Made by a program: the position numbers and the translations under genes
In this document: positions 1 to 61,102 of the stretch, piece after piece
How positions within the stretch are numbered: the first letter of the stretch is position 1
Layout: the number at the start of each line of letters is the position of its first letter
Assembly (NCBI RefSeq): GCF_018889955.1
Contig: NZ_CP076545.1
Location: forward strand, 124,001 to 188,000
Direction of reading: 5' to 3'
Origin: Collinsella sp. zg1085
Lineage (GTDB): Bacteria; Actinomycetota; Coriobacteriia; Coriobacteriales; Coriobacteriaceae
DNA length: 64,000 nucleotides
Notes under the pieces: model-generated
Told to the model about the DNA's origin: nothing
What the model saw: the letters and a program-made list of their open reading frames with translations, nothing else
Databases searched by the model: none

Positions 1-1067
1 AACGCTTTCAGGCAGGAACATTCAAACTCTCCAGCCCACCCTATGGCTATATATGGAATGGTGAAAACCTCGTCATCGATCAGCACAAAGCACCCATTGT
101 TCAAGATATTTTCACGTGCGCTCTATCTGGGATGGGAAGCAGTGCCATTGCTAAAAAGCTCAATGATGAGAACGTTTCACCTTGCAGAGCTACTCTGTGG
201 AGAGACACTGCTATTCGCTCGATTTTGACCAACGAGAAATATACCGGTGATGTTATTTTCCAAAAAACCTATACCGATGATGCGTACAAACGCCACATAA
301 ACAGGGGAGAAAAACAACACTTCCGCATAGCCAATCATCACGAGGCAATCATCACCCATGAAACATTCGATAAAGTGCAGCAACTTCTAAGCATGAGAGC
401 GAGTCGAAAGAATAATCCTCAGGGTAGTACAAAGTGTCTTGTGCGCTACGCGTTCTCGGGAAAAATCTCGTGCGCAGTCTGCCATTCATCATTTAAGCGC
501 ATCACCTACGGCAAGCAAAATACTGCCGTGAAATGGGGATGCACAGGTCACATACGCAACAAAGATGCCTGCCCAATAAAAGCGATTCCCGATGAGTTAA
601 TCAAGGTTGCTTTTGTCACCATGTTCAACAAACTCATCTATGCACGCCAAAGAATCCTTACGCCCTATTTGGCTGATTTACACTCGAGTGCTCAGGACAA
701 CTCAGCGCAAAGAATCCATGTGCTTACCAGCTCAGTAACCAACCTAGAGCAAAGCCTTAGTGACTATCAAAACTTGCTAAACGAAGGTCTTATCGACCAA
801 GCCTTATACCTCAATGAATCAAGCATCGTAAAAAACAAAATACAAACCACCAAAATAGAAATCGAACACATCAAGCGAAGCATCGAAAACTCAGTCGACT
901 TTGTCAAAGCCACCCAAGAACTCCTCGATAAAACCAGTCGAGCAAACATGCAACAAAGCTTTGATGAGCAGCTGTTTTTAGACATCGTCAGGCGCGTGCT
1001 TATACAAAGCCAGCGCGAACTGGTCTTTGAGCTTAAATGCGGACTGTATTTACCAGAAAGGATATAA
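1..1067 (+). CDS. Large serine recombinase, 5'-truncated by the window edge
   Basis: Reading frame is open from base 3 (no start in the window) to a TAA at 1065-1067. What is visible is the DNA-binding part of a large serine integrase: a recombinase domain (PYGYIWNG near the edge; the typical ILTNEKYTGDVIFQKTY segment), a zinc-ribbon with CAVC and a second Cys pair (CTGH...DACP), and a Gln/Lys-rich coiled-coil tail. The catalytic Ser domain would lie to the left and cannot be checked. It is followed after 4 bp by a small recombinase-like gene and then a full recombinase, so the three form one operon. Such triplets of serine integrases are known from integrative conjugative elements of Gram-positives; assignment as the integration module of such an element is inference. 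Confidence 0.85.
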   Translation, partial: RFQAGTFKLSSPPYGYIWNGENLVIDQHKAPIVQDIFTCALSGMGSSAIAKKLNDENVSPCRATLWRDTAIRSILTNEKYTGDVIFQKTYTDDAYKRHINRGEKQHFRIANHHEAIITHETFDKVQQLLSMRASRKNNPQGSTKCLVRYAFSGKISCAVCHSSFKRITYGKQNTAVKWGCTGHIRNKDACPIKAIPDELIKVAFVTMFNKLIYARQRILTPYLADLHSSAQDNSAQRIHVLTSSVTNLEQSLSDYQNLLNEGLIDQALYLNESSIVKNKIQTTKIEIEHIKRSIENSVDFVKATQELLDKTSRANMQQSFDEQLFLDIVRRVLIQSQRELVFELKCGLYLPERI

Positions 1068-1071
1068 GAAC

Positions 1072-1500
1072 ATGACACACATACCCTTTGGCTACATCAT
1101 AGAAAACGGCCACATTAAAATCAACCCAGTACAGGCTAGGCAACTTAAAGTCTTGTTTGAAAGCTACCGCGACCACCAAGGTCTAAGCCGTGCCGGAAAA
1201 GATGCAGGCACCACCTTGACGCACTCGCGAATTGCACACATCCTAGCCGACCAACGCTACCTCGGTGATGACATCTATCCTGCCATCATTGACCAACAGC
1301 TCTTTGACGCAGTCCAAGACAAACGTCGTACCTTAAAAGAAAAACACCATATGACAGGATGGCGAAAAGAAAAGCACACACCCAATATTCCTACTGTGTT
1401 TCACATCCGTCCTGAGCAAGAACACTTTGAAAACATTCGAGAGCACGTCCAATACATCTACACGCTCATTGAAAGCGAGGACGAATCATGCCACAAGTAA
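1072..1500 (+). CDS. Small recombinase-domain protein lacking the catalytic domain
   Basis: 142 residues from the ATG at 1072, chosen because AAAGGATATAAGAAC just upstream supplies a ribosome site; a longer frame from 1027 would overlap the preceding gene without one. The sequence resembles only the central recombinase segment of large serine integrases: [12 protein letters not shown], then an [18 protein letters not shown] block like the SNEKYxGD segment of its neighbours. There is no resolvase domain and so no catalytic Ser. It overlaps the next recombinase by 13 bp, implying translational coupling. It may be a DNA-binding accessory subunit or directionality factor for the two large recombinases; that role is inference. 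Confidence 0.75.
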
Positions 1501-3053
1501 CCATCATCCCAGCAAAACCACAGCTGGGCAACCGCTCCAGCACAGAAGAAATCAAAAAGCTTCGCGTTGCCGCATACTGCCGTGTATCCACCGATACTGA
1601 AGAACAAGAAACAAGCTACGAAGCACAAGTCGAACACTACAAGTACTATATAAAAGCTCATCCAGAATGGACGTTTGCTGGCATCTATGCAGATGACGGA
1701 ATATCCGGCACAAACACCAAAAAGCGAGAAGAATTCAACCGCATGATTGAGGCGTGTATGGCAGGGGATATCGATATGATTATCACCAAATCCATCTCAC
1801 GCTTTGCCAGAAACACGCTGGACTGCCTCACATACATCCGTCAGCTCAAAGAACAAAACATTGCAGTCCTTTTTGAAAAAGAATCCATCAACACACTGGA
1901 CGCAAAAGGGGAGGTGCTCCTCACCATCATGGCAAGTCTTGCCCAGCAAGAAAGCCAATCGCTATCACAAAACGTCAAACTAGGTATTCAGTACCGCTAT
2001 CAGCAAGGCAAAGTTCAAATCAACCATAAGCACTTTCTGGGCTACACCAAAGACACAGACGGCAACCTCATCATTGACCCTGAGCAAGCACAAACCGTCA
2101 AACGCATCTTCAGAGAATTCCTTGATGGGAAAAGCCCTCACAGCATCGCTAAAGGCTTGCAAGCAGACGGTATTTCTAATGGTGCAGGAAAAACGAAATG
2201 GTGGGAATCAAATATCAGGCAAATCCTGAGCAACGAAAAATACATGGGAGATGCCCTCTTACAAAAAACAGTCACCACTGATTTCTTGACAAAAACACGG
2301 GTGAAAAACACCGGGCAAGCACAGCAATACTATGTTGAAAACAACCACGAAGCCATTATCCCCAAAGACATCTTCTTGCTCGCTCAAGAAGAACTTATCA
2401 AACGGTCCAAAAGCTACCTAAGCCCTGCAGGCATTCGGCGCAACTACTCAAGTCAACATCCGCTGTCACAGAAAGTGATATGTGCCGAGTGTGGCGACCT
2501 GTTCAGGCGAATCCATTGGAATAATCGTGGTAAGAAATCCGTGGTCTGGCGCTGTATCTCAAGACTTGAAGCAGCTCATGCACACATGGTCTGTCACGCA
2601 AGAACCGTCCACGAAGATGAACTTAAAGCAGTTTGCACAAAGGCATTGAACATGCTGCTTGCATCCAAACAAGACTTCATCGACCAGCTCACACAAAACC
2701 TCGAACATGCAATACAACCCACAACCGATATGAACGCTCTTGAGATTGATAAACAACTTAAAGAGCTCCAGCAACAGCTCATCGGAAAAGTCCAACAAAA
2801 ACAAGACTACGCTCACATCGCAGAACAAATACATGCCCTCATGGCACAAAAAGCAGACATCGAACAAGAACAAACCCGCACATCAGAACACCTCATGCGC
2901 ATGAATGAACTCAAATCGTTCATTCAAAAGCAAACGCTCGCTATCACCGACTTTGACGAAACCCTCGTGCGCAGACTCATCGAATCCATCCTCATAGAAG
3001 ATGAAGGCTATACCGTAGCCTTCAAATCAGGCACAAGCCTACACATCAACTAA
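1488..3053 (+). CDS. Large serine recombinase (site-specific integrase)
   Basis: 521 residues, complete. Resolvase domain about 25-165 with catalytic Ser34 in YCRVST and the SISRFARN helix at 102-109; recombinase domain about 185-300 ([24 protein letters not shown]); zinc ribbon around CAECGDLF with a distal Cys pair; C-terminal Gln-rich coiled coil. Length and order fit the TndX/TnpX-type large serine integrases that cut and rejoin DNA at short att sites. Last gene of the three-recombinase operon, reading towards the element end at 3429-3468, as expected for an integration module beside its att site. Followed by an intrinsic terminator at 3075-3108. Confidence 0.93.
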
Positions 3054-3108: not shown

Positions 3109-3150
3109 CTTATGCCAAAACATGGTAGATGACCTCGTGTTATCAACCCT

Positions 3151-3312
3151 ACACACTCAACACCAAAAAACATCTATCCTGAACACTCAACAAGCCAAAA
3201 CATCTATCTCGCACACTCAACACCGTGAAAACATCAATCCTAAACACTCAAGAGAGAAAAACATCCATCGTAAACACTCAACATGTCAAAACATCTATCC
3301 TGCACACTCGAG
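3151..3312. repeat. Six-unit 30-bp tandem repeat (iteron-like array)
   Basis: The word CACTCAA (CACTCGA in the last unit) recurs at 3154, 3184, 3214, 3245, 3275 and 3305, so the period is 30 bp (once 31). Each unit is CACTCAA, four to six variable bases, then AAAACATCTATCC-like sequence. Units abut without spacers. The array lies between the recombinase operon and the att copy at 3429. A 76-codon frame runs through it (3122-3352), but it is low-complexity and lacks a convincing ribosome site, so it is treated as DNA repeat. Role unknown; recombinase accessory sites, iterons or element-end binding sites are possible. Confidence 0.85.
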
Positions 3313-5875: not shown

Positions 5876-5929
5876 GCGGGGATGCGCTTGCTTATATGGT
5901 TGCTTTTCTTGGTGTTTGTTCTTTATGTA

Positions 5930-7603
5930 AGAGACAGGCTTTAGGAGGGGCTGTGTTTTTCGAGAGTTTTTGGGAACATATGCGTCACAAAACTGCTCGC
6001 TTCTCAATTCAGATGAGACCAAGGTATTGCCTTCCCTGAATGTGCTGCGCAAAATTCTCCGAACGCAACACCTTGGTTTTACGTCTGCCTTTCGTGTTTA
6101 AACAAACTGCATTTCAATAAAGCTGTGTCCCGCGAACACTTCCCTGAAAAAGCAACTTGTTTTTCTCTTGTGCGGACAGATTTCAAAACACCGCCAACTT
6201 GAATGAGCTGTTTTGACAGAAACGGGCAATGTGGCAGTAAAACCTGACAGAAACAGGCAATGTGGCAATAAACCCCCTGTAGTACAAAAAACTGCACTTC
6301 ATCTACCTGCAGGTTTATAAAACAATGAATAACCCACGGGGTTCTACACTACCAAATTGCCCGTTTCTGTCAAAAGAGGTTTGGCTAATGCCACTGTCTT
6401 CCTGTGAGTTGGCAAAAAAGACTAATTTGACGCAAAAATCTGTCATTTTTGACCAATTTGGCATAAAGAGACAGTTGTTGCTTTACGCGTAGCTCTTCTA
6501 CCTGCGGCTTTGTATGACAAATACTAACCCGCTGGGTTATAGAGAGTACTTTTTTGTCATTTTTGCCAAAGCGACAGGTGTAACTTATTGATGTAATGGT
6601 GGTAGTAGTTTGTGTTTAGTGCATTAGCTGTACTACTGCGTAACGTGCCGTAATGAATTGCAGTGTTAGAAATACCTTGTAATAGCTTTACGAAATTGCG
6701 AAAACTCAGGGCTACTGGGAAGCAAAACGCTCTAGTGTACGAATTTTTGCTAGTAGCCCGAGTATAGGGGGTCTGTACAAAGAAACTTTTCAGCATTTCC
6801 GCAGGAAGGATGCTTTAGCTTAGTAGAGTGTACTTGACCCTAGTCAAGAAAATCGTACATTAGATGGATTTCCTCTTGGGGCGTTGATGTAATGCAGCTC
6901 ATATCACTTATTAGCTAAAAAAACACTGCAACAGAGGTAGTTTGAGCAGTCAGACCAAGGTATTGCGTTCGGAGAATTCTGCGTAGCACATTCGTAGAAC
7001 GCAATACCTTGTCTCGTGCACTAACTCTGTAAAAGCTAAGCTCACGGGCAGGCAAAAGCTTAACGGTAGAAAAGAGCTTCAACCCAATCCCATTTCATCC
7101 CATAAGCGCTGCTTGTGCATGGCGGGGTGTGGGAGTGAGCTGATTGCTGTTTGTACATTTGGTATTTACTGTAAGAAAGGGGACGAATGATTGTGCTCGG
7201 AGAATTCTGCGTAGCACATTCGGAGAGCGCAATCATTCGTTCAGTTGAGGTGGAGCTACAGTACAAAGCAGGTGAGATAGAGCTACAACATAAGGGTGGC
7301 ATAGCTTTTCTAAGGGAACTTTCGCGAAGCGCAGTTCCCGTGAAAAGACTATGCCACCCCATAGGTTTACGACTCATTCATCACATAGACGAGGTGAAAG
7401 ACTATGCCACCTCGTAAGCTTGCAATTCATTCGCCCAGCTTAGACGACATGAAAAGTCTCTACCATTCCATACGCTTGCGACTCATTCGTCCAACTTAGA
7501 CGGTGTGAAAAGCCTCTGCCATCAACGATGCTAAGAGCGAAACAAAGCCACCAACCACAGCTCACCCCACACCCCGCCTTCAGGAAGCAAGCAGCCGCTT
7601 ATA
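5930..7603. repeat. Long non-coding palindromic element, copy A (left arm missing)
   Basis: Core with hairpins H3 at 6019-6076 and 6955-7012, then a right arm with H2 at 7183-7240, H1 at 7294-7359, and the outer repeat (AGCTCACCCCACACCCCGCC) ending at about 7603. H1 is GGGTGGCATAG...CTATGCCACCC; H2 is ACGAATGATTG...CAATCATTCGT; H3 is CCAAGGTATTG...CAATACCTTGG. The core also holds TAACCCGCTGGGTTA, ACCTGCAGGT, CTTGACCCTAGTCAAG and repeated TGACAGAAACGGGCAA motifs in both orientations. 5996-6898 reads identical to 36845-37747 of copy B; left of 5996 the two remain alignable but diverge, and the H2/H1 left arm is absent. The right end overlaps the TAA of pepT. No credible gene inside; small frames here are explained by the repeats. 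Confidence 0.9.
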
Positions 7604-8843
7604 CCTCGCTGAAGCGCTTTACGAGCTCTACCAGCATATCGACCATCTTTTCCAAAGACTCAACGGGGATAAACTCATGCACGCCATGCATGCAATATCC
7701 ACCGGTTGAAATGTTCGGACACGGCAGCCCTCTAAAACTAAGCTGCGCGCCATCGGTGCCACCACGAATAGGAAGTACGCGCGGCTCAATATCAATAGCC
7801 CTAAATGCCTCTTCGGCGCGGCTTATCAACTCAGGGCGCACACTCACGACCTCAGCCATGTTACGGTACTGCTGCTTTATTTCAACATGTACACGCTTAG
7901 TATCTGAGCCGGCATTGATAAACTCTGCTGCGCGGTTAATCAGGTCAATTTTTGCCGCAAACGCATCTGCACTATGGTCGCGAATGATATAGCGCGCTGT
8001 GGCGTGGCTCGCTGTTCCCGAAACTCCTTCGAGGTGAATAAACCCTTCGTACCCTTCGGTAGTTTCTGCACGCTGTGCTGGCGGAAGCAAGGCATGGAAA
8101 TCCGTAAACATGTTGAGCGCGTGAATCATGCGCCCTTTTGCATCGCCGGTATGAATTGAGCGCCCCTCAAAGCTGACGGTTGCTTCCGCCGCATTAAAGC
8201 ACTCCCATTCAAGCACGCCGATAGGTCCGCCATCTACGGTATAGGCATAGTCACAAGCAAAACGTTCAATATCAAGCAGCTCAGCGCCGTGTCCTATCTC
8301 CTCGTCTGGGCAAAAGCAGATGCCCAGCGGTGGATGCGGCAATTCAGGGTGCTGAGACAGGCGAGCAACCAAAGACATTATCTCTGCAACGCCAGCCTTA
8401 TCATCTGCACCCAAAAGTGTTGTACCATCGGTGCAAACAAGGTCTTTGCCAACCAGCTTATGCAGCTCAGGCAAGGTGTCATCAGATAGCGCAACAGGCA
8501 CCCCATTGACCTCACCACAAACTAAGTCCCCACCGGTATAGTGCACGATATGCGGCTTTACACCTTCGCCCAGCGCCTGCTCGGTGGTATCTATATGCGC
8601 AATAAGCCCCAAACGTGGCAGATGCTCAGCTCCAGGGCTTGCCGGAATATGAGCGGTAACGTAGGCATGTTCGCTCACCTCAACCTGCTCAGCGCCCAAT
8701 GACCGCAGCTCATCTGTCAGCATATGGGCGAGGTCAAACTGACATGCGGTCGATGGAACCTGATAAGAATGTTCATCGGATGAAGTTGTAAAAACCTGGA
8801 CATAGCGCAAAAAGCGCTTAAGTACATCGGATGAATTACTCAT
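7599..8843 (-). CDS. pepT: Peptidase T (tripeptide aminopeptidase)
   Basis: 414 residues, the usual PepT length. M20-family dizinc metallopeptidase that releases the N-terminal residue from tripeptides in the cytosol. Visible: zinc-binding AHIDT, LGADDKAG, catalytic/bridging PDEEIGHG, VDGG, and the C-terminal RGGTDGAQLSFRGLPCPN block with the final HGVHEF. AAGGAG six bases before the ATG sets the start. Transcribed divergently from the regulator at 8974 across 130 bp. Its TAA stop lies inside the outer repeat of element A, so the element reaches exactly to the coding end. A role in peptide nutrition of an asaccharolytic or weakly saccharolytic anaerobe is inference. Confidence 0.95.
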   Translation of the reverse strand: MSNSSDVLKRFLRYVQVFTTSSDEHSYQVPSTACQFDLAHMLTDELRSLGAEQVEVSEHAYVTAHIPASPGAEHLPRLGLIAHIDTTEQALGEGVKPHIVHYTGGDLVCGEVNGVPVALSDDTLPELHKLVGKDLVCTDGTTLLGADDKAGVAEIMSLVARLSQHPELPHPPLGICFCPDEEIGHGAELLDIERFACDYAYTVDGGPIGVLEWECFNAAEATVSFEGRSIHTGDAKGRMIHALNMFTDFHALLPPAQRAETTEGYEGFIHLEGVSGTASHATARYIIRDHSADAFAAKIDLINRAAEFINAGSDTKRVHVEIKQQYRNMAEVVSVRPELISRAEEAFRAIDIEPRVLPIRGGTDGAQLSFRGLPCPNISTGGYCMHGVHEFIPVESLEKMVDMLVELVKRFSEV

Positions 8844-11304: not shown

Positions 11305-12813
<1,509 letters not shown>

Positions 12814-13158
12814 CTAGGGAGATACTTCTTCTAGGAAGAACATAATTTGATTTGATGGCGCGGAGGTAATAGTCGTTCCGGCTCTATCTGTTAAACAGTC
12901 TTTATCGCAGCATCCGGTTCCTGAGGGATACCTTCAGTGTACCTTGAGAGCCGCATAGCGAAATACGTATGAGTCAAATTTGACTCAGACACAATTCTTC
13001 TTAATGGAGATATAAGAGATACATCCAATCTGCAATAGATTTTATGTAAGAAGCATCTAATACGATCGCAAGAAGATAGATTATCTTCTCATCGTGGTAT
13101 GCGACACCCAAGAGTTTACAATTACTCATGAATATACATGTTAGCATCTCGCTTCTAA
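12814..13158 (+). other. 16S-23S spacer without tRNA genes
   Basis: 345 bp. Holds the 3' arm of the pre-16S stem (12898-12932) and the 5' arm of the pre-23S stem (12938-12973, pairs with 16224-16262). No tRNA-Ile or tRNA-Ala can be folded from it: there is no T-loop (GGTTCGANTCC) motif. Confidence 0.85.
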
Positions 13159-16147
<2,989 letters not shown>

Positions 16148-16223
16148 TTAGACGAGATGCATATACACATGTACTCGGTGTCGCTAAGAACTTCTTCTCT
16201 TATGGTCTTGGTCTAAATCACAC

Positions 16224-16262
16224 CTCATACGTATAAAATCGCTGTGTGGCCCTCAGGGTACA
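16224..16262 (+). other. 3' arm of the pre-23S processing stem
   Basis: CTCATACGTA...TCGCTGTGTGGC...GGTACA is nearly the reverse complement of 12938-12973. The pair closes the 23S precursor for RNase III and lies in the 23S-5S spacer. Confidence 0.7.
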
Positions 16263-16295
16263 TATATCTCTCAAGGTGGGTGAGTGTCGCCCACC

Positions 16296-16412
16296 GGTCA
16301 GCGGCTATGGCGGGCGGGGTACGCCCGGTCCCATTCCGAACCCGGAAGCTAAGCCGCCGAGCGCCGATGGTACTGCGGAGTAAGTCCGTGGGAGAGCAGG
16401 GCGCCGCTGACC
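16296..16412 (+). rRNA. rrf: 5S ribosomal RNA
   Basis: About 117 nt. GGTCAGCGGCTATGGCGGGC at the 5' end pairs with GCCGCTGACC at the 3' end; the loop CCCATTCCGAACCCGGAAGC is the conserved 5S core. Third gene of the 16S-23S-5S operon. Confidence 0.95.
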
Positions 16413-36342: not shown

Positions 36343-38421
36343 TATACGCTGCTGTTTGTTTCTCGGAGGCGGGGTGTGGGGTGAGCTAGCTCCGTGATTG
36401 CCGTCCTAACTTCACCTTTTGTTCAGCAAGTGGCATAGGCTTTTCGCATCGTCAGTTGGGCGAATGAATTGCACGTCTCTGGGGTGGCATAGTCTTTTCA
36501 CGGGAACTGCGCTACGCGAAAGTTCCCTTAGAAAAGCTATGCCACCCCTAAGTGGAAGTTCTATCTCACCTGCTTTGTACAGTAGCTCCATCTCAACGGG
36601 ACGAATGATTGTGCTCTCCGAATGTGCTTCGCAAAATTCTCCGAACACAATCATTCGTCCATTTCTTTAAAGCAAATGCCAAACACACATACGGCACTCA
36701 GCTCGCCCCACACCTCGCCATGCACAAGCAGCGCGTATAGGATGAAAGGGGTTGAGTTGCAACTCCTGCGCAACCAGAGAGAAATCCCGCTTCAAGGGCT
36801 TTTCTACTCGAAAGTCTGCCTAAAACATTTGTTCAGTAAAACTTCTCGCTTCTCAATTCAGATGAGACCAAGGTATTGCCTTCCCTGAATGTGCTGCGCA
36901 AAATTCTCCGAACGCAACACCTTGGTTTTACGTCTGCCTTTCGTGTTTAAACAAACTGCATTTCAATAAAGCTGTGTCCCGCGAACACTTCCCTGAAAAA
37001 GCAACTTGTTTTTCTCTTGTGCGGACAGATTTCAAAACACCGCCAACTTGAATGAGCTGTTTTGACAGAAACGGGCAATGTGGCAGTAAAACCTGACAGA
37101 AACAGGCAATGTGGCAATAAACCCCCTGTAGTACAAAAAACTGCACTTCATCTACCTGCAGGTTTATAAAACAATGAATAACCCACGGGGTTCTACACTA
37201 CCAAATTGCCCGTTTCTGTCAAAAGAGGTTTGGCTAATGCCACTGTCTTCCTGTGAGTTGGCAAAAAAGACTAATTTGACGCAAAAATCTGTCATTTTTG
37301 ACCAATTTGGCATAAAGAGACAGTTGTTGCTTTACGCGTAGCTCTTCTACCTGCGGCTTTGTATGACAAATACTAACCCGCTGGGTTATAGAGAGTACTT
37401 TTTTGTCATTTTTGCCAAAGCGACAGGTGTAACTTATTGATGTAATGGTGGTAGTAGTTTGTGTTTAGTGCATTAGCTGTACTACTGCGTAACGTGCCGT
37501 AATGAATTGCAGTGTTAGAAATACCTTGTAATAGCTTTACGAAATTGCGAAAACTCAGGGCTACTGGGAAGCAAAACGCTCTAGTGTACGAATTTTTGCT
37601 AGTAGCCCGAGTATAGGGGGTCTGTACAAAGAAACTTTTCAGCATTTCCGCAGGAAGGATGCTTTAGCTTAGTAGAGTGTACTTGACCCTAGTCAAGAAA
37701 ATCGTACATTAGATGGATTTCCTCTTGGGGCGTTGATGTAATGCAGCGCATATCACTTATTAGCTAAAAGAAAACACTGCAACAGAGGTAGTTTGAGTGG
37801 GCAGACCAAGGTATTGCATTCGGAGAATTCTGCGTAGCACATTCGTAGAACGCAATACCTTGTCTGTACTGTTAACCAAGTGGGAGTGAGGCTCACGGGC
37901 AAGTAGGGATTTAACGGTAGAAAAGAGCTTAAACCCAAACCCATTTCATCTCATATGCCCTGCTTGTGCATGGCGGGGTGTGAGGTGAGTTGAGTGTCGT
38001 TGTGCATTTGGCATTTACTGTATGAAAGGGACGAATGATTGTGTGCGAAGAATTCTGCGTAGCACATTCGGAGAACACAATCATTCATCCGGTTGATATG
38101 AGGTGATAAGTAATCAACGGAGAGGGAGAATTAGTTCGTAGAACAGGTGAGATAGAACTACAACATAAGGGTGGCATAGCTTTTCTAAGGGAACTTTCGC
38201 GAAGCGCAGTTCCCGTGAAAAGACTATGCCACCCCATAGGTTTACGACTCATTCTCCCAACTGGTGAGATGAAAGACCTACGTCACACAGCAAGCCTGCG
38301 AACCATTCGTTAAACTGTCGAAGCGAAAAGCCTCTGCCATCAACGATGCCAAGAGCGAAATCAAATCCGCAACCACAGCTCACCCCACGCCCCGCCTACA
38401 GGAAGCGAGTAGCCGCTTATC
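36343..38421. repeat. Long non-coding palindromic element, copy B (complete)
   Basis: About 2.08 kb between nrdB and the EF-G-like gene. Left arm: outer repeat (GGCGGGGTGTGGGGTGAGCT near 36372), H1 36482-36547, H2 36601-36658, inner outer-type repeat with CCACACCTCGCCATGCACAA near 36705, H3 36868-36925. Core to H3 37806-37862. Right arm, inverted: inner repeat near 37965, H2 38031-38088, H1 38169-38234, outer repeat ending at about 38421. 36845-37747 reads identical to 5996-6898. No protein-coding signature; a 72-codon and a 79-codon frame shared with copy A follow simply from that identity. The left end starts 3-4 bp after the nrdB stop. Confidence 0.92.
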
Positions 38422-42779: not shown

Positions 42780-42786
42780 GACGGGG

Positions 42787-45020
42787 TATACGCCGGTGCT
42801 TGCTTCCTGGAGGCGAGGTGTGGGGTGAGCTGGCCTTGCGTCACCCATTTGGTTTGCAAACTTGTTGGGTGGCATGGTTTTTCACGTCATCTAAGCTGGG
42901 CGAACGATTTGCAGGCTTGTTGAGCGGCAGAGGTTTTCACCTCGTCAGTTGGGCGATTGGTTTGCACGTCTATGGGGTGGCATAGTTTTTTCACGGGAAC
43001 TGCGCTTCGCGAAAGTTCCCTTAGAAAAGCTATGCCACCCTTATGCTGCATCTCTATCTCACCCGCTTTGTTCGGTAGCTCCATCTCAATCAAACGAATG
43101 ATTGTGCTCTCCGAATGTGCTACGCAGAATTCTCCGAACACAATCATTCGTCCTTTTAATACGATAAAGACCTAAAACCTTACAGCATGCGGCAATCTCC
43201 ACACCCCGCCATGTACAAGCAGCGCATATGGGTTGAAAAGGGGTTGAGTTGTAGCTCTTACGGGACAAAAGCGAGATGCCCACTTCAAAAGGATAGTGCT
43301 ACTCGATAATCTACCTAGAAACGTAAGCTCCGCAAAGCTCATTCGTTTCTTAACTCAGGTAAGACCAAGGTATTGCATTTTACGAATGTGCTTCGCAGAA
43401 TTCTCCGAACGCAATACCTTGGTCTTTCACCTATTTACCGTGCTTTCCAAATTTCAAATCAAGAATAGAGTAGTTCGCGAACACTTTCCCTAGAAATACA
43501 GCACGTTTCTCATATGTGCGGACAGATTCCAAAACACCGCCAACTTGGTTGAGCGGTTTTGACAGAAACGGGCAATTTGGCAGTAAAACCTGACAAAAAT
43601 GAGCAATATGGCAATAAACCCCCTGTAGTATGAAAAACTGCAAGTTATCTACCTGCAGGTTTACAAAACAACAAATAACCCACGGGGGTTCTACACTGCC
43701 AAATTGCCCATTTCTGTCAAAAGAGGCTGGGCTAGCATTGCCACCAACGGAAATCAGATTAGGAAACAAAACTTGAAATCCTGCGAAAACAATTAAATCT
43801 AGCGGTCAAACAAAACCTCTGAACTGCGCTTTGGCAAAAGTGACTAATTTGACGCAAAATTCTGTCATTTTTGACCAATTTGGCATAAAGAGACAATTGT
43901 TAACTTACTCTCAGCTTATCTACCTGCGGCTTTGTAGGATAAATACTAACCCGCTGGGTTATAGAGAGTACTTTTTCGTCAGTTTTGCCAAAGCGACAGA
44001 TGTAACTTATCTATGTGACAAGAGCCTTAGCACCCGATACGGCATAATTGTGCTGCTATTGCGTTTTGCGAAGCAATTCCGGTATGTTAACCCAACGTGT
44101 AACGATGCATTGTTGGCTTGTCTCGGCAATATCTTGACGTAATGGGAACTCGCAGGGATTTATGGAGCAAACAATGCTCCTATGAAATTGCGAAAACTCT
44201 GAGGTTCTGGAAGTTAATCAATCTAGTGTACGAATTTTTGCCAGCAGCTTGAGTATGGGGGGTCTGTACAAGCAAATATTTTAGTATTTCCGCAGGAAAG
44301 ACGCTTTACTTTAGTGGAGTGTACTTAACCATAGTCAAGATGATCGTACATTAGATGGGTTTCCTCTTGGGGCGTTAATGTGAAAGACCTATTCTACATA
44401 TTAGTCGACGAAAAACAGTGCAGCAGAAGCAATGACGAGCAATGAGACAAGGTATTGCATTCGGGGAATTCTGCGCAGCACATTCATAGAATGCAATACC
44501 TTGCCCGTAGTGCTAACTAGGTGAGTGTAAAGCTTACAGGCAGGTAAGAACTTAACGGTAGAAAAGAGCTCCAGTCCAAACCTTTTTATCCCATATGCCC
44601 TGCTTGTGCATGGCGGGGTGTGGAGTGAGCTGACCGCTGTTGTGCATTTGGTATTTACCGTAAGAAAGGGGACGAATGATTGTGCAGCACATTCTTAGAG
44701 CATAATCATTCGTCCAGTTGAGATAGGGTTGTAGTACAAAGCAGGTGAGATAGAGCTGCAGCATAAGGGTGGCATAGCTTTTCTAAGGGAACTTTCGCGA
44801 AGCGCAGTTCCCGTGAAAAGACTATGCCACCCCATAGGCGTGCAAACCAATCGCCCAACTGACGAAGTAAAAGCCTCTGCCGCTCAACAAGCTTGCAAAT
44901 CATTCGTCTAACTTAGATGACGTGAAAAGCCTCTGCCATCAACGAAATCAAGGACGAAACAAAGACAGCAACAACAGCTCATCCCACACCCCGCCTCTAG
45001 GAAACAAGCAGCCGCGTATA
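42787..45020. repeat. Long non-coding palindromic element, copy C (complete, diverged)
   Basis: About 2.23 kb. Left arm: outer repeat (GAGGTGTGGGGTGAGCT near 42813), H1 42975-43040, H2 43094-43151, H3 43365-43422. Core 43423-44447 keeps the same order of motifs as copies A and B (TGACAGAAACGGGCAA pair, ACCTGCAGGT, ATAACCCACGGG, TAACCCGCTGGGTTA, CGCAGGAAAGACGCTTTA) but with many substitutions and about 100 extra bases near 43730-43830. Right arm: H3 44448-44503, H2 44672-44713 (shortened to 42 bp, middle deleted but tips kept), H1 44767-44832, outer repeat to about 45020. No credible gene. Confidence 0.9.
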
Positions 45021-45223
45021 TCATCATAGTTTCTCTAAAATTCACGCCCCTTCACCGATTTTTATCCCCGCTTGCCGGAATAAAGCGAATGTGTCTATAA
45101 AATTATGCGTTGCATGAGAGAATTTAAGTAACATTTGCACAATTTTTTGTTGTGCACAATTGAACCTGAGTGGCTCTGGAAACTGGGTAGCTCTGAGTTG
45201 AATGGTGGAGGTGGTAGCGACTT

Positions 45224-57759: not shown

Positions 57760-58920
57760 ATGGCAAGAAAACCCATTCAGCAAATGCGTTATGCAAGTGG
57801 AGCTGCAAGTCGTATTTATAGCCGCGAAAATGTTGAGCGGTATTCACAGCGTGCGCGTGAGCGTCGCCGCGGACGAGTTATGCGGCGTGTAATTACTACT
57901 ACCATTGTGTTGCTTTTTGTTTTGGGCGGCAGCGCGCTGGCACTCAATATTGCAAAGAGCATCATTAACGGCTCACTGCATGGTGATGCAGGTTATCTCA
58001 ATGGTCTGGTGGGTGTTCTTACCGATAATAATGCGGCAAAGGATCCATTTAATATTTTGTTGCTAGGCACCGATGGACGACCAGGAGAGGATACGTTTAG
58101 GTCGGATTCTATTATTCTGGCGCATGTCGATCCAGTTAAGAAAACCGCTGCTCTCATCTCAATTCCGCGCGATACTAAGGTTGAATATAAGGGCAGCACA
58201 ATGAAGATTAACGAGACGCATGCTTATGGCGGTCCTGAGGCTGTCGTTACTGCGGTTAAAGATTTGTGCGGTGTTGATATTTCCTATTACGCTGAAGTGA
58301 GTTTCACGGGTATGGTGAACTTGGTTGATGCAGTTGGGGGCATAGATTTAACCATTCCTGAAGGTGACGCCGTGGACGACCCAGATGCAGGTGATGTGCC
58401 GGTTCCTTCGGGAGATCAGCATCTTAACGGTGAGATGGCGTTGGTCTTTAGCCGCGCGCGTCATCAGTTTGGCGATGGCGACTATACACGCATGCGTCAC
58501 CAGCGTATGGTTTTAGGTGCACTAGCAAAGAAGATTCTTAATAATCTTGATTTGACACAGGTACCGGCATTGCTGGATTCACTGAAAGAAATGCTGGTCA
58601 CCACCATGAATGTAGATGACATCATTGGCGTTATGACAGCAATGCGCGGTATGGATACCAATAATATTTGGTCGGCTAATCTTCCAAGTCACGCCGGTTC
58701 AGATACCATGATTAACGGAAAGAGCTATGTCTTTGTATATGAAGAAGAGCTCAAAGAAATGATGGCACTTGTTGAGGCTGGTGAAGATCCCAAAGGCCCC
58801 AATAGCTCTGGGCGCAAGGGTCAGTCAACAACACTGGGCGATCTTGCAACTAACAGCAGCGACGATTGGACAAATGGAGCTGCTGTTACCGCGGGCGGCG
58901 GGCATTCCGAAACCGAGTGA
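57760..58920 (+). CDS. LytR-CpsA-Psr (LCP) family wall-polymer transferase
   Basis: 386 residues, starts 11 bp after murA. Basic cytosolic N-terminus (about 1-40), one membrane helix about 42-63 (VITTTIVLLFVLGGSALAL), then an external LCP domain: ILLLGTDGR, RSDSIILAHVDP, ISIPRDTKV, VDAVGGIDLTIP, FSRARHQFGDGDYTRMRHQR. LCP enzymes move teichoic-acid-like or capsular polymers from a lipid carrier to peptidoglycan or proteins. The Arg and Asp residues that bind pyrophosphate are present. The C-terminal 60 residues are Ser/Gly-rich and disordered. The TGA stop shares its final base with the start of element D. Confidence 0.94.
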   Translation: MARKPIQQMRYASGAASRIYSRENVERYSQRARERRRGRVMRRVITTTIVLLFVLGGSALALNIAKSIINGSLHGDAGYLNGLVGVLTDNNAAKDPFNILLLGTDGRPGEDTFRSDSIILAHVDPVKKTAALISIPRDTKVEYKGSTMKINETHAYGGPEAVVTAVKDLCGVDISYYAEVSFTGMVNLVDAVGGIDLTIPEGDAVDDPDAGDVPVPSGDQHLNGEMALVFSRARHQFGDGDYTRMRHQRMVLGALAKKILNNLDLTQVPALLDSLKEMLVTTMNVDDIIGVMTAMRGMDTNNIWSANLPSHAGSDTMINGKSYVFVYEEELKEMMALVEAGEDPKGPNSSGRKGQSTTLGDLATNSSDDWTNGAAVTAGGGHSETE

Positions 58921-61102
58921 TACGCCGTTGCTTGCTTCCTAGAGGCAGGGTGTGGGGCGAGCTGTTGTTGCGGATTTGATTTCGCTCTTAGTATCGTTGA
59001 TGGCAGAGGCTTTTCATGTCGTCTAAGCTGGACGAACGAATTGCAAGCTTACGGGGTGGCATAGTCTTTTCACGGGAACTGCGCTTCGCGAAAGTTCCCT
59101 TAGAAAAGCTATGCCACCCTTATGCTGCATCTCTATCTCACCTGTTCTACGAGCTAATTCTCCCTCTCAGTTGATTGCTTATCACCTCATATCAACTGAA
59201 CGAATGATTGTGCTCTCCGAATGTGCTTCGCAGAATTCTTCGAGCACAATCATTCGTCCTCTTCTTACAGTAAATGCCAAATGCATATACAGCACTCAGC
59301 TCACCCCACACCCCGCCATACACAAGCAGCGCATATGGGATAAAAAGGTTTGGGTTGAAGCTCTCTTTTACCGTTAAGCTTTTACCTGCCCGTGAGCCTC
59401 ACTCCCGCTTGGTTAGCAGTACGGACAAGGTATTGCATTCTTCGAATGCAATACCTTGGTCTGCCTACTCAAACTGCCTCTGTTGCAGTGCTTCCTTTTA
59501 GCTAATAAGTGATATATACGCTGTATTACATTAACGCTCAAGGAGGAAACGGGCCTAGTGTACGATTTTTTGCAAGAGGTTAAGTATACTTTGCTAGAGT
59601 AAAGCGTCTTTCCTGCGGAAACGCTGAAAAGTTCGCTTGTACAGACCCCCTATACTTGGACCACAGGGAATAATTCGTACACTAGAGCGATTTGCTTCCA
59701 GAAACCCTGAGTTTTCGCAATTTTGTAAAGCTATTACAAGGTATTCCAACACTGCAATTCATTACGGCACGTTACGCAGCAGTACAGCTAATGCACTAAA
59801 CACAAACTACCACCACCATCACATCGATAAGTTACACCTGTCGTTTTGGCAAAAATGACGAATTTGTACTCTCTATAACCCAGCGGGTTAGTATTTGTCC
59901 TACAAAACCGCAGGTAGATGAGCTGCGAGTAAGTTGACAGCTGTCTCTTTACGCCAAATTCGTCAAAAATGACAGGTTATTGCGTCAAATTAGTCATTTT
60001 TGCCAAAGCATAGGTCAGAGGTGTTATTTGACCACTAGATTTGATTGTTTTCGCCAGATTTCAAGTTTTGTTTGCTAATCTGATTTCCGCTGGTGGCAAT
60101 ACCAGCCCAACGCTTTTTGACAGAAATGGGCAATTTGGTAGTGTAGAACCCCCGTGGGTTATTCGTTATTTTATGAACCTGCAGGTAGATGAAGTATATC
60201 CTTTCCTGCTTTAGGGGGTTTATTGCCAGATTGCCCCTTTTTGTCAGTTTTTACTGCCAAATTGCCCGTTTCTGTCAAAATTGCTCAGCCAAGTTGTCGT
60301 CGTTTTGAAATCTATCTGTACATATGAGAAACGCGCTACTTTTTCAGAAAAAGTGTTTGCGAACTACTCTTTTCTTGATTTGAGTTTTTGGAAAGAACGA
60401 TAAGTAGGTGAATGACCAAGGTATTGCGTTCGGAGAATTCTGCCAAGCATATTCGTAGAATGCAATACCTTGGTCTATTTCAAGTTGAGAAACGAGAAGT
60501 TTTGCGGAGTACACGTTTCGAGGAAGTCTTTCGAGTGAAAAAGCCCTTGAAGCGGGATTTCTCTCTGGTTGCGCAGGAGTTGCAACTAAACCCTTTTCAT
60601 CCTATACGCACTGCTTGTGCATGGCGGAGTGTGGAGTGAGCTGAGTGTCGTATAGGTAATGGGTCGTTACTGTAAAAATAGGACGAATGATTGTGCTCGG
60701 AGAATTTTGCGAAGCACATTCGGAGAGCGCAATCATTCGTTCAGCTGATATGAGGTGATAAGCAAACTACAGAGGGAGAATTAGCTCGTAAAGCAAGTGA
60801 GACAGAGCTACAACATAAGGGTGGCATAGCTTTTCTAAGGGAACTTTCGCGTAGCGCAGTTCCCGTTAAAAGACTATGCCACCCTATACGTTTACGACTC
60901 ATTCATCACATAGACGAGGTGAAAACTATGCCACCCCATACACTTGCAATTCATTCTCCCAGCTTAGACGACGCAAAAAGCCTACGTCACTCAGCAAGCT
61001 TACGAGCTATTCGTCCAGTTGGCAAAGTGAAGCGACATGAAGCAAAATCAGAGCTGCAACCACACCCCACACCCCGCCTCCGGGAAACGAGCAGCTGCTT
61101 AT
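58920..61102. repeat. Long non-coding palindromic element, copy D (complete, core inverted)
   Basis: About 2.18 kb. Left arm: outer repeat (TACGCCGTTGCTTGCTTCCT then GGGTGTGGGGCGAGCT), H1 59054-59119, H2 59200-59257, H3 59426-59458 (only 33 bp: the middle is missing, the stem is perfect). Core to 60415 is the reverse complement of cores A-C (TAACCCAGCGGGTTA near 59877, CGCAAAACTC-type motif inverted). Right arm: H3 60416-60473, H2 60683-60740, H1 60819-60884, outer repeat ending about 61102, six bases before the TAA of the leftward nox gene. So it fills exactly the space between two convergent coding ends. No credible gene. Confidence 0.9.

Follow-up and report, generated by a model that had tools for sequence, protein, structure and literature searches.

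The window analysed here comprises 64,000 nucleotides, bases 124001–188000 of a genome that consists of a single contig of 1,720,218 bases. It contains four copies, called A to D, of a non-coding mosaic repeat, for which 44 element places were found in the fetched parts of the genome, with fragments and single modules included. According to the family alignment, copy A (5940–7604, + strand) lacks its left arm, and at its right end it overlaps the pepT stop codon. The family homology of this copy continues leftward to about 5940, and its left 56 bp match a copy outside the window, called E. The other three copies were delimited by the family alignment together with the end motif. Copy B (36343–38420, + strand) has the full length of about 2.08 kb and begins 3 nt past the nrdB stop codon, copy C is located at 42786–45021 (+ strand), and copy D (58918–61102, − strand) occupies the whole interval that separates two convergent stop codons. 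Copies A and B are in direct orientation, 30,849 bp apart, and one of the genome's two rRNA operons (11305–16412, + strand) lies between them, just as the earlier note had described for copies some 31 kb apart. The segment between them also carries ribonucleotide reductase genes.

In its full form, represented by copy B, the repeat has a core of ca 1.2 kb between two arms in inverted orientation. Each arm is ca 400–475 bp long, is bounded on the outer and the inner side by a shared end motif, and contains two palindromes, H1 and H3. The core modules, all on the + strand in copy A, are M1 (6208–6381; ca 170 bp, located by subtracting 30849 from 37057–37230 of copy B), M2 (6401–6594; ca 190 bp) and M3 (6689–6874; ca 185 bp), the latter two placed by the family alignment. 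M1 has terminal inverted repeats, and both M1 and M2 also occur solo elsewhere in the genome. In the arm, H1 (7185–7240, + strand) was recognized from family comparison and folding, and H3 (7294–7359, + strand) has a DNA folding energy of −23.8 kcal/mol with a z score of −8.6. H3 (64–66 bp) is nearly invariant, its 28 copies in the fetched DNA being 94–100% identical to the query, with even the unpaired positions kept, whereas conservation is lower in most of the remaining arm columns.

The elements have terminal inverted repeats, as the end motif pattern gives 32 matches compared to none in the reversed control. They hold short ORFs only (up to 160 aa), and several copies are without them. 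Inspection by eye of B, C, D and F, in which both ends are present, showed no clear target-site duplication, although a TA dinucleotide is possible. A Pfam search of the genome for Y1_Tnp, DDE_3 and DDE_Tnp_1 proteins returned none, with Y1_Tnp being found in 5 of 14 control genomes. The repeat resembles a composite MITE/REP. A scan of copy B yielded five terminator-like sites against 2.1 expected and one promoter-like site against 2.4, which is not decisive, and the known RNA families detected in the 64-kb window are rRNA and tRNA only.

We also searched for the element outside this genome. Querying 38 relatives, including 23 congeners, with the tract described below yielded nothing at E ≤ 0.001. 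The arm, at E ≤ 1, matches in 26 of 43 genomes (the own genome included), but the matches in the 42 congeners are short, the best having an E value of 0.0213, and many of those in relatives fall at one place, at arm positions of about 395–421. A 20-mer from the hairpin core has six exact matches in genome_contigs, which are single, fall in unrelated organisms and correspond roughly to chance by our own estimate, for a collection that may leave out the own genome; it has none in viral_contigs. An origin from a phage or plasmid was considered and rejected, the region 5900–7620 being without a blastn match in either collection.

We now consider the identity between copies A and B. The earlier note had claimed that 5996–6898 and 36845–37747 (both + strand) are the same base for base at a constant offset of 30849, and had proposed a pairwise alignment as a check. 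Direct comparison gives 903 of 903 bases the same, with no mismatches, and the maximal exact run between the two copies begins and ends at precisely these positions. It is the longest exact match across all fetched element places, the runner-up being 172 bases. To put this in relation to the rest of the family, 18 larger copies were aligned and the identity within the tract was scored for every pair in which over 300 columns were aligned. While A and B are 100% identical, the other 147 scorable pairs range from 70.3 to 88.5%, with a median of 79.4%. The ends of the tract fall elsewhere than the module ends.

The sequence just outside had been described as alignable but clearly different, with a sharp edge of identity. 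On the left, this holds through copy E: the flank of A aligns to that of E with 82% identity and a score of 56, reached by none of 200 shuffles (maximum 34). Against copy B alone it does not hold, since the score of 24 was reached by 10 of 200 shuffles and is near that of shuffled sequence. The six copies listed as nearest to A in this flank do not include B, which means that the A–B identity there is 60% or less. On the right, the ends of the exact run are confirmed, but the edge is less sharp than first described, because A and B retain 95.7% identity over the 115 alignment columns that directly follow the tract (other pairs 66–91%, n=14). Beyond these columns, from 37866 to 38420, the description applies, with A and B being 81.8% identical (432/528), within the range of the other pairs (76.1–86.8%, n=14). 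Here A is closer to D (84.9%) and to C (82.9%) than to B. The conversion event discussed below may thus have been compound, or its right end patchy, as the 115 columns would suggest.

Copy A is accordingly built of blocks, with a left part that resembles E, a middle part the same as in B, and a right part that resembles C and D, and the identity within the tract is far above that of both flanks. A run-length test on the polymorphic columns (148 pairs, 300 permutations) gave an expected number of 4e-33 for the A–B run, which none of the 300 permutations reached. Because a sharp and perfect block lies inside a longer homologous unit, and because both flanks of A are nearer to third copies than to B, we conclude with high confidence that the 903 bp were transferred recently by ectopic gene conversion, the two partners being copies of a dispersed composite inverted-repeat element that is non-coding. 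The earlier note had favored recent gene conversion or replacement over an old insertion, and the results bear out both parts: the block is surrounded by diverged flanks nearer to C, D and E, and since the alignment remains in register to the left and right of the block, an insertion can be excluded.

A different explanation for the identity would be an assembly error by which both loci received the sequence of a single copy. We find this improbable. The two rRNA operons, of ca 5.6 kb and 99.7% identical (5633 aligned bases, 8 mismatches, 5 gap openings), were kept separate in the same contig, and since the contig resolves these, a merging of repeats that are ca 80% alike is unlikely. The other copies of the element were likewise kept distinct at 70–88%, and a collapse does not usually yield a block with the flanks of two different copies. 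As a separate observation on the operons, their 16S genes (11305–12813, and 538230–539740 of the genome) differ by two single-base gaps only, which could be sequencing error or real heterogeneity.

Another option considered was a recent duplicative transposition, involving either the complete element or just 0.9 kb of it, with later divergence of the ends. The terminal inverted repeats and the many copies would be in line with this. However, outside the tract the divergence is the same as in other pairs, with A being nearer to C, D and E; the homology runs in register on both sides with nothing inserted; and the tract ends do not match the module ends. As A is a mosaic, there has therefore been no recent duplication of the whole element, and the transposition scenario as such is very unlikely. 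Strong purifying selection holding the 903 bp identical can be dismissed almost entirely: parts of the element are indeed highly conserved, such as H3 in its 28 copies, but H3 is outside the tract, and the same stretch is 12–30% different in all 147 other pairs.

For the gene conversion, the following course can be envisaged. One copy would suffer a break or gap, and RecA-type homologous recombination, starting in short near-identical stretches, would mend it with the other copy as template. The heteroduplex between sequences that are ca 20% different would then not be rejected, and the tract would extend almost to the left limit of the homology of A. Mismatch repair normally hinders recombination between sequences of this degree of difference. 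A profile search of the genome for MutS_I gave no matches, while 11 of 14 control genomes have one. For NucS_C, the only match is below threshold (22.9 bits compared to a cut-off of 24, profile positions 12–55), and no full NucS was found; the ORF in the frame of this partial match could not be assigned to any Pfam family (E 0.01). Since the genome shows no MutS_I match and no full NucS match, recombination between diverged copies would be permitted, and the absence of these known mismatch-repair proteins probably helped the conversion between A and B. The 16S sequence suggests that the genome belongs to the Coriobacteriia. In a published study, NucS and MutS-MutL are missing from every member of this class that was analysed, and deletion of NucS in M. 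smegmatis raises recombination between non-identical sequences (PMC5290159), which is consistent with the present results.

The nearest copies determined window by window along the element do not settle the direction of the conversion. B as the donor is weakly favored, in that copy O is the closest both to its left flank and to a portion of the tract. A second probable conversion is found between D and E, which have a 172-bp exact tract in common (59598–59769, − strand; in E from position 208434 of the genome). The run-length test gave an expected number of 1e-14 for this exact match, with none of the 300 permutations reaching it. This second tract suggests that conversion is a recurrent process. 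Weaker signals in the same test (C–O, B–M and others) are not claimed here, as uneven conservation along the element can produce them.

The event is of a known and ordinary kind, although unusually clean and with a plausible permissive cause. Gene conversion has been described for the tuf genes of Salmonella, which differ at 12 positions and in which it is limited by the bounds of homology (PMC5485169), and between duplicates among the PE/PPE genes of M. tuberculosis (PMC12046097). Those cases share with ours the transfer of a block between homologous sequences of one chromosome, which in those genes is non-reciprocal. In contrast to tuf, the partners A and B are non-coding repeats that are only ca 80% alike outside the tract. 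A literature search for MITEs together with gene conversion in bacteria found no such case among the papers listed, and one for MITEs in Coriobacteriia gave a single, unrelated paper. Here, in a genome lacking a MutS match as well as a full NucS match, a long tract has been converted between repeats that are only ca 80% alike, which makes it a clean natural example. It leads to the prediction that, where mismatch repair is missing from a lineage, conversion between diverged repeats should be more frequent and extend over longer tracts.

What is more curious, and less well understood, is the repeat family itself and where its copies are placed. With gene starts taken as maximal ORF starts, 25 outer ends were counted, 18 of which face a stop codon. 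For 17 of these 18, the distance to the stop falls between −10 and +8 nt, and for the remaining one it is 81 nt. The other seven ends face a start codon, at −83, 5, 13, 56, 72, 137 and 202 nt. Outside this list are two more copies (genome 260051 and 315513), for which the outer end motif was not found and whose ends are 43 and 51 nt after the stop. In the window, whose gene gaps alone serve as the null for the stop distances, non-operon-like gaps are mostly 100–500 nt, and the closeness to the stops is therefore not due to a lack of room. The adjoining genes are C-terminally complete where their families permit this to be judged (NrdB 346/346, NADH oxidase 442/442, GroEL 544/546 of one GroEL model). 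At several outer ends the stop codon is inside the end motif; stop-adjacent examples are 36343, 42786, 58918, 61102 and 7604.

Among known repeats, the BrickBuilt MITE of Porphyromonas gingivalis has 19 copies in one strain, located 49–591 nt from coding sequences (PMC4596501). The two families are alike in being species-limited, intergenic and MITE-like, with inverted-repeat ends and inner repeats. They differ in module structure and in the distance to genes, 17 of the 18 stop-facing ends here being closer, and a tandem-repeat scan of copies A–D revealed no 23-nt minisatellite. The REP/BIME sequences of enterobacteria are palindromic extragenic repeats, some of which are directly 3' of stop codons (PMC12306157); REP ends can also provide the stop codon (PMC3733652). 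Compared to the REP/BIME unit of 20–40 bp, the present elements are of 400–2200 bp with palindromes of ca 60–70 bp, and the Pfam search found no RAYT-type Y1_Tnp partner in the genome. The evolution of REP sequences by gene conversion was reportedly proposed by Higgins et al. in 1988.

One can speculate that the elements are shared gene-end units and not passive transposon remains. The outer arms, with a nearly invariant palindrome and with stop codons next to or within them, would then act as the 3' ends of transcription units, and frequent conversion, unchecked by mismatch repair, would keep the working parts uniform within one species and might even carry them to further gene ends. We regard this as a rather unlikely proposal. 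The repeat family at stop codons, so far found in one species, merits a separate study.

It is important to note that A and B now constitute a perfect direct repeat of 903 bp. A crossover between them could duplicate or delete the 31-kb segment with the rRNA operon, the deletion being probably harmful. Close to the left end of the window, at 132–3053, there are ORFs related to large serine recombinases (CcrB/CcrC/XisF-like), and at 3142–3309 a tandem array with a unit of ca 30 bp is found in a 521-bp gap between convergent genes.
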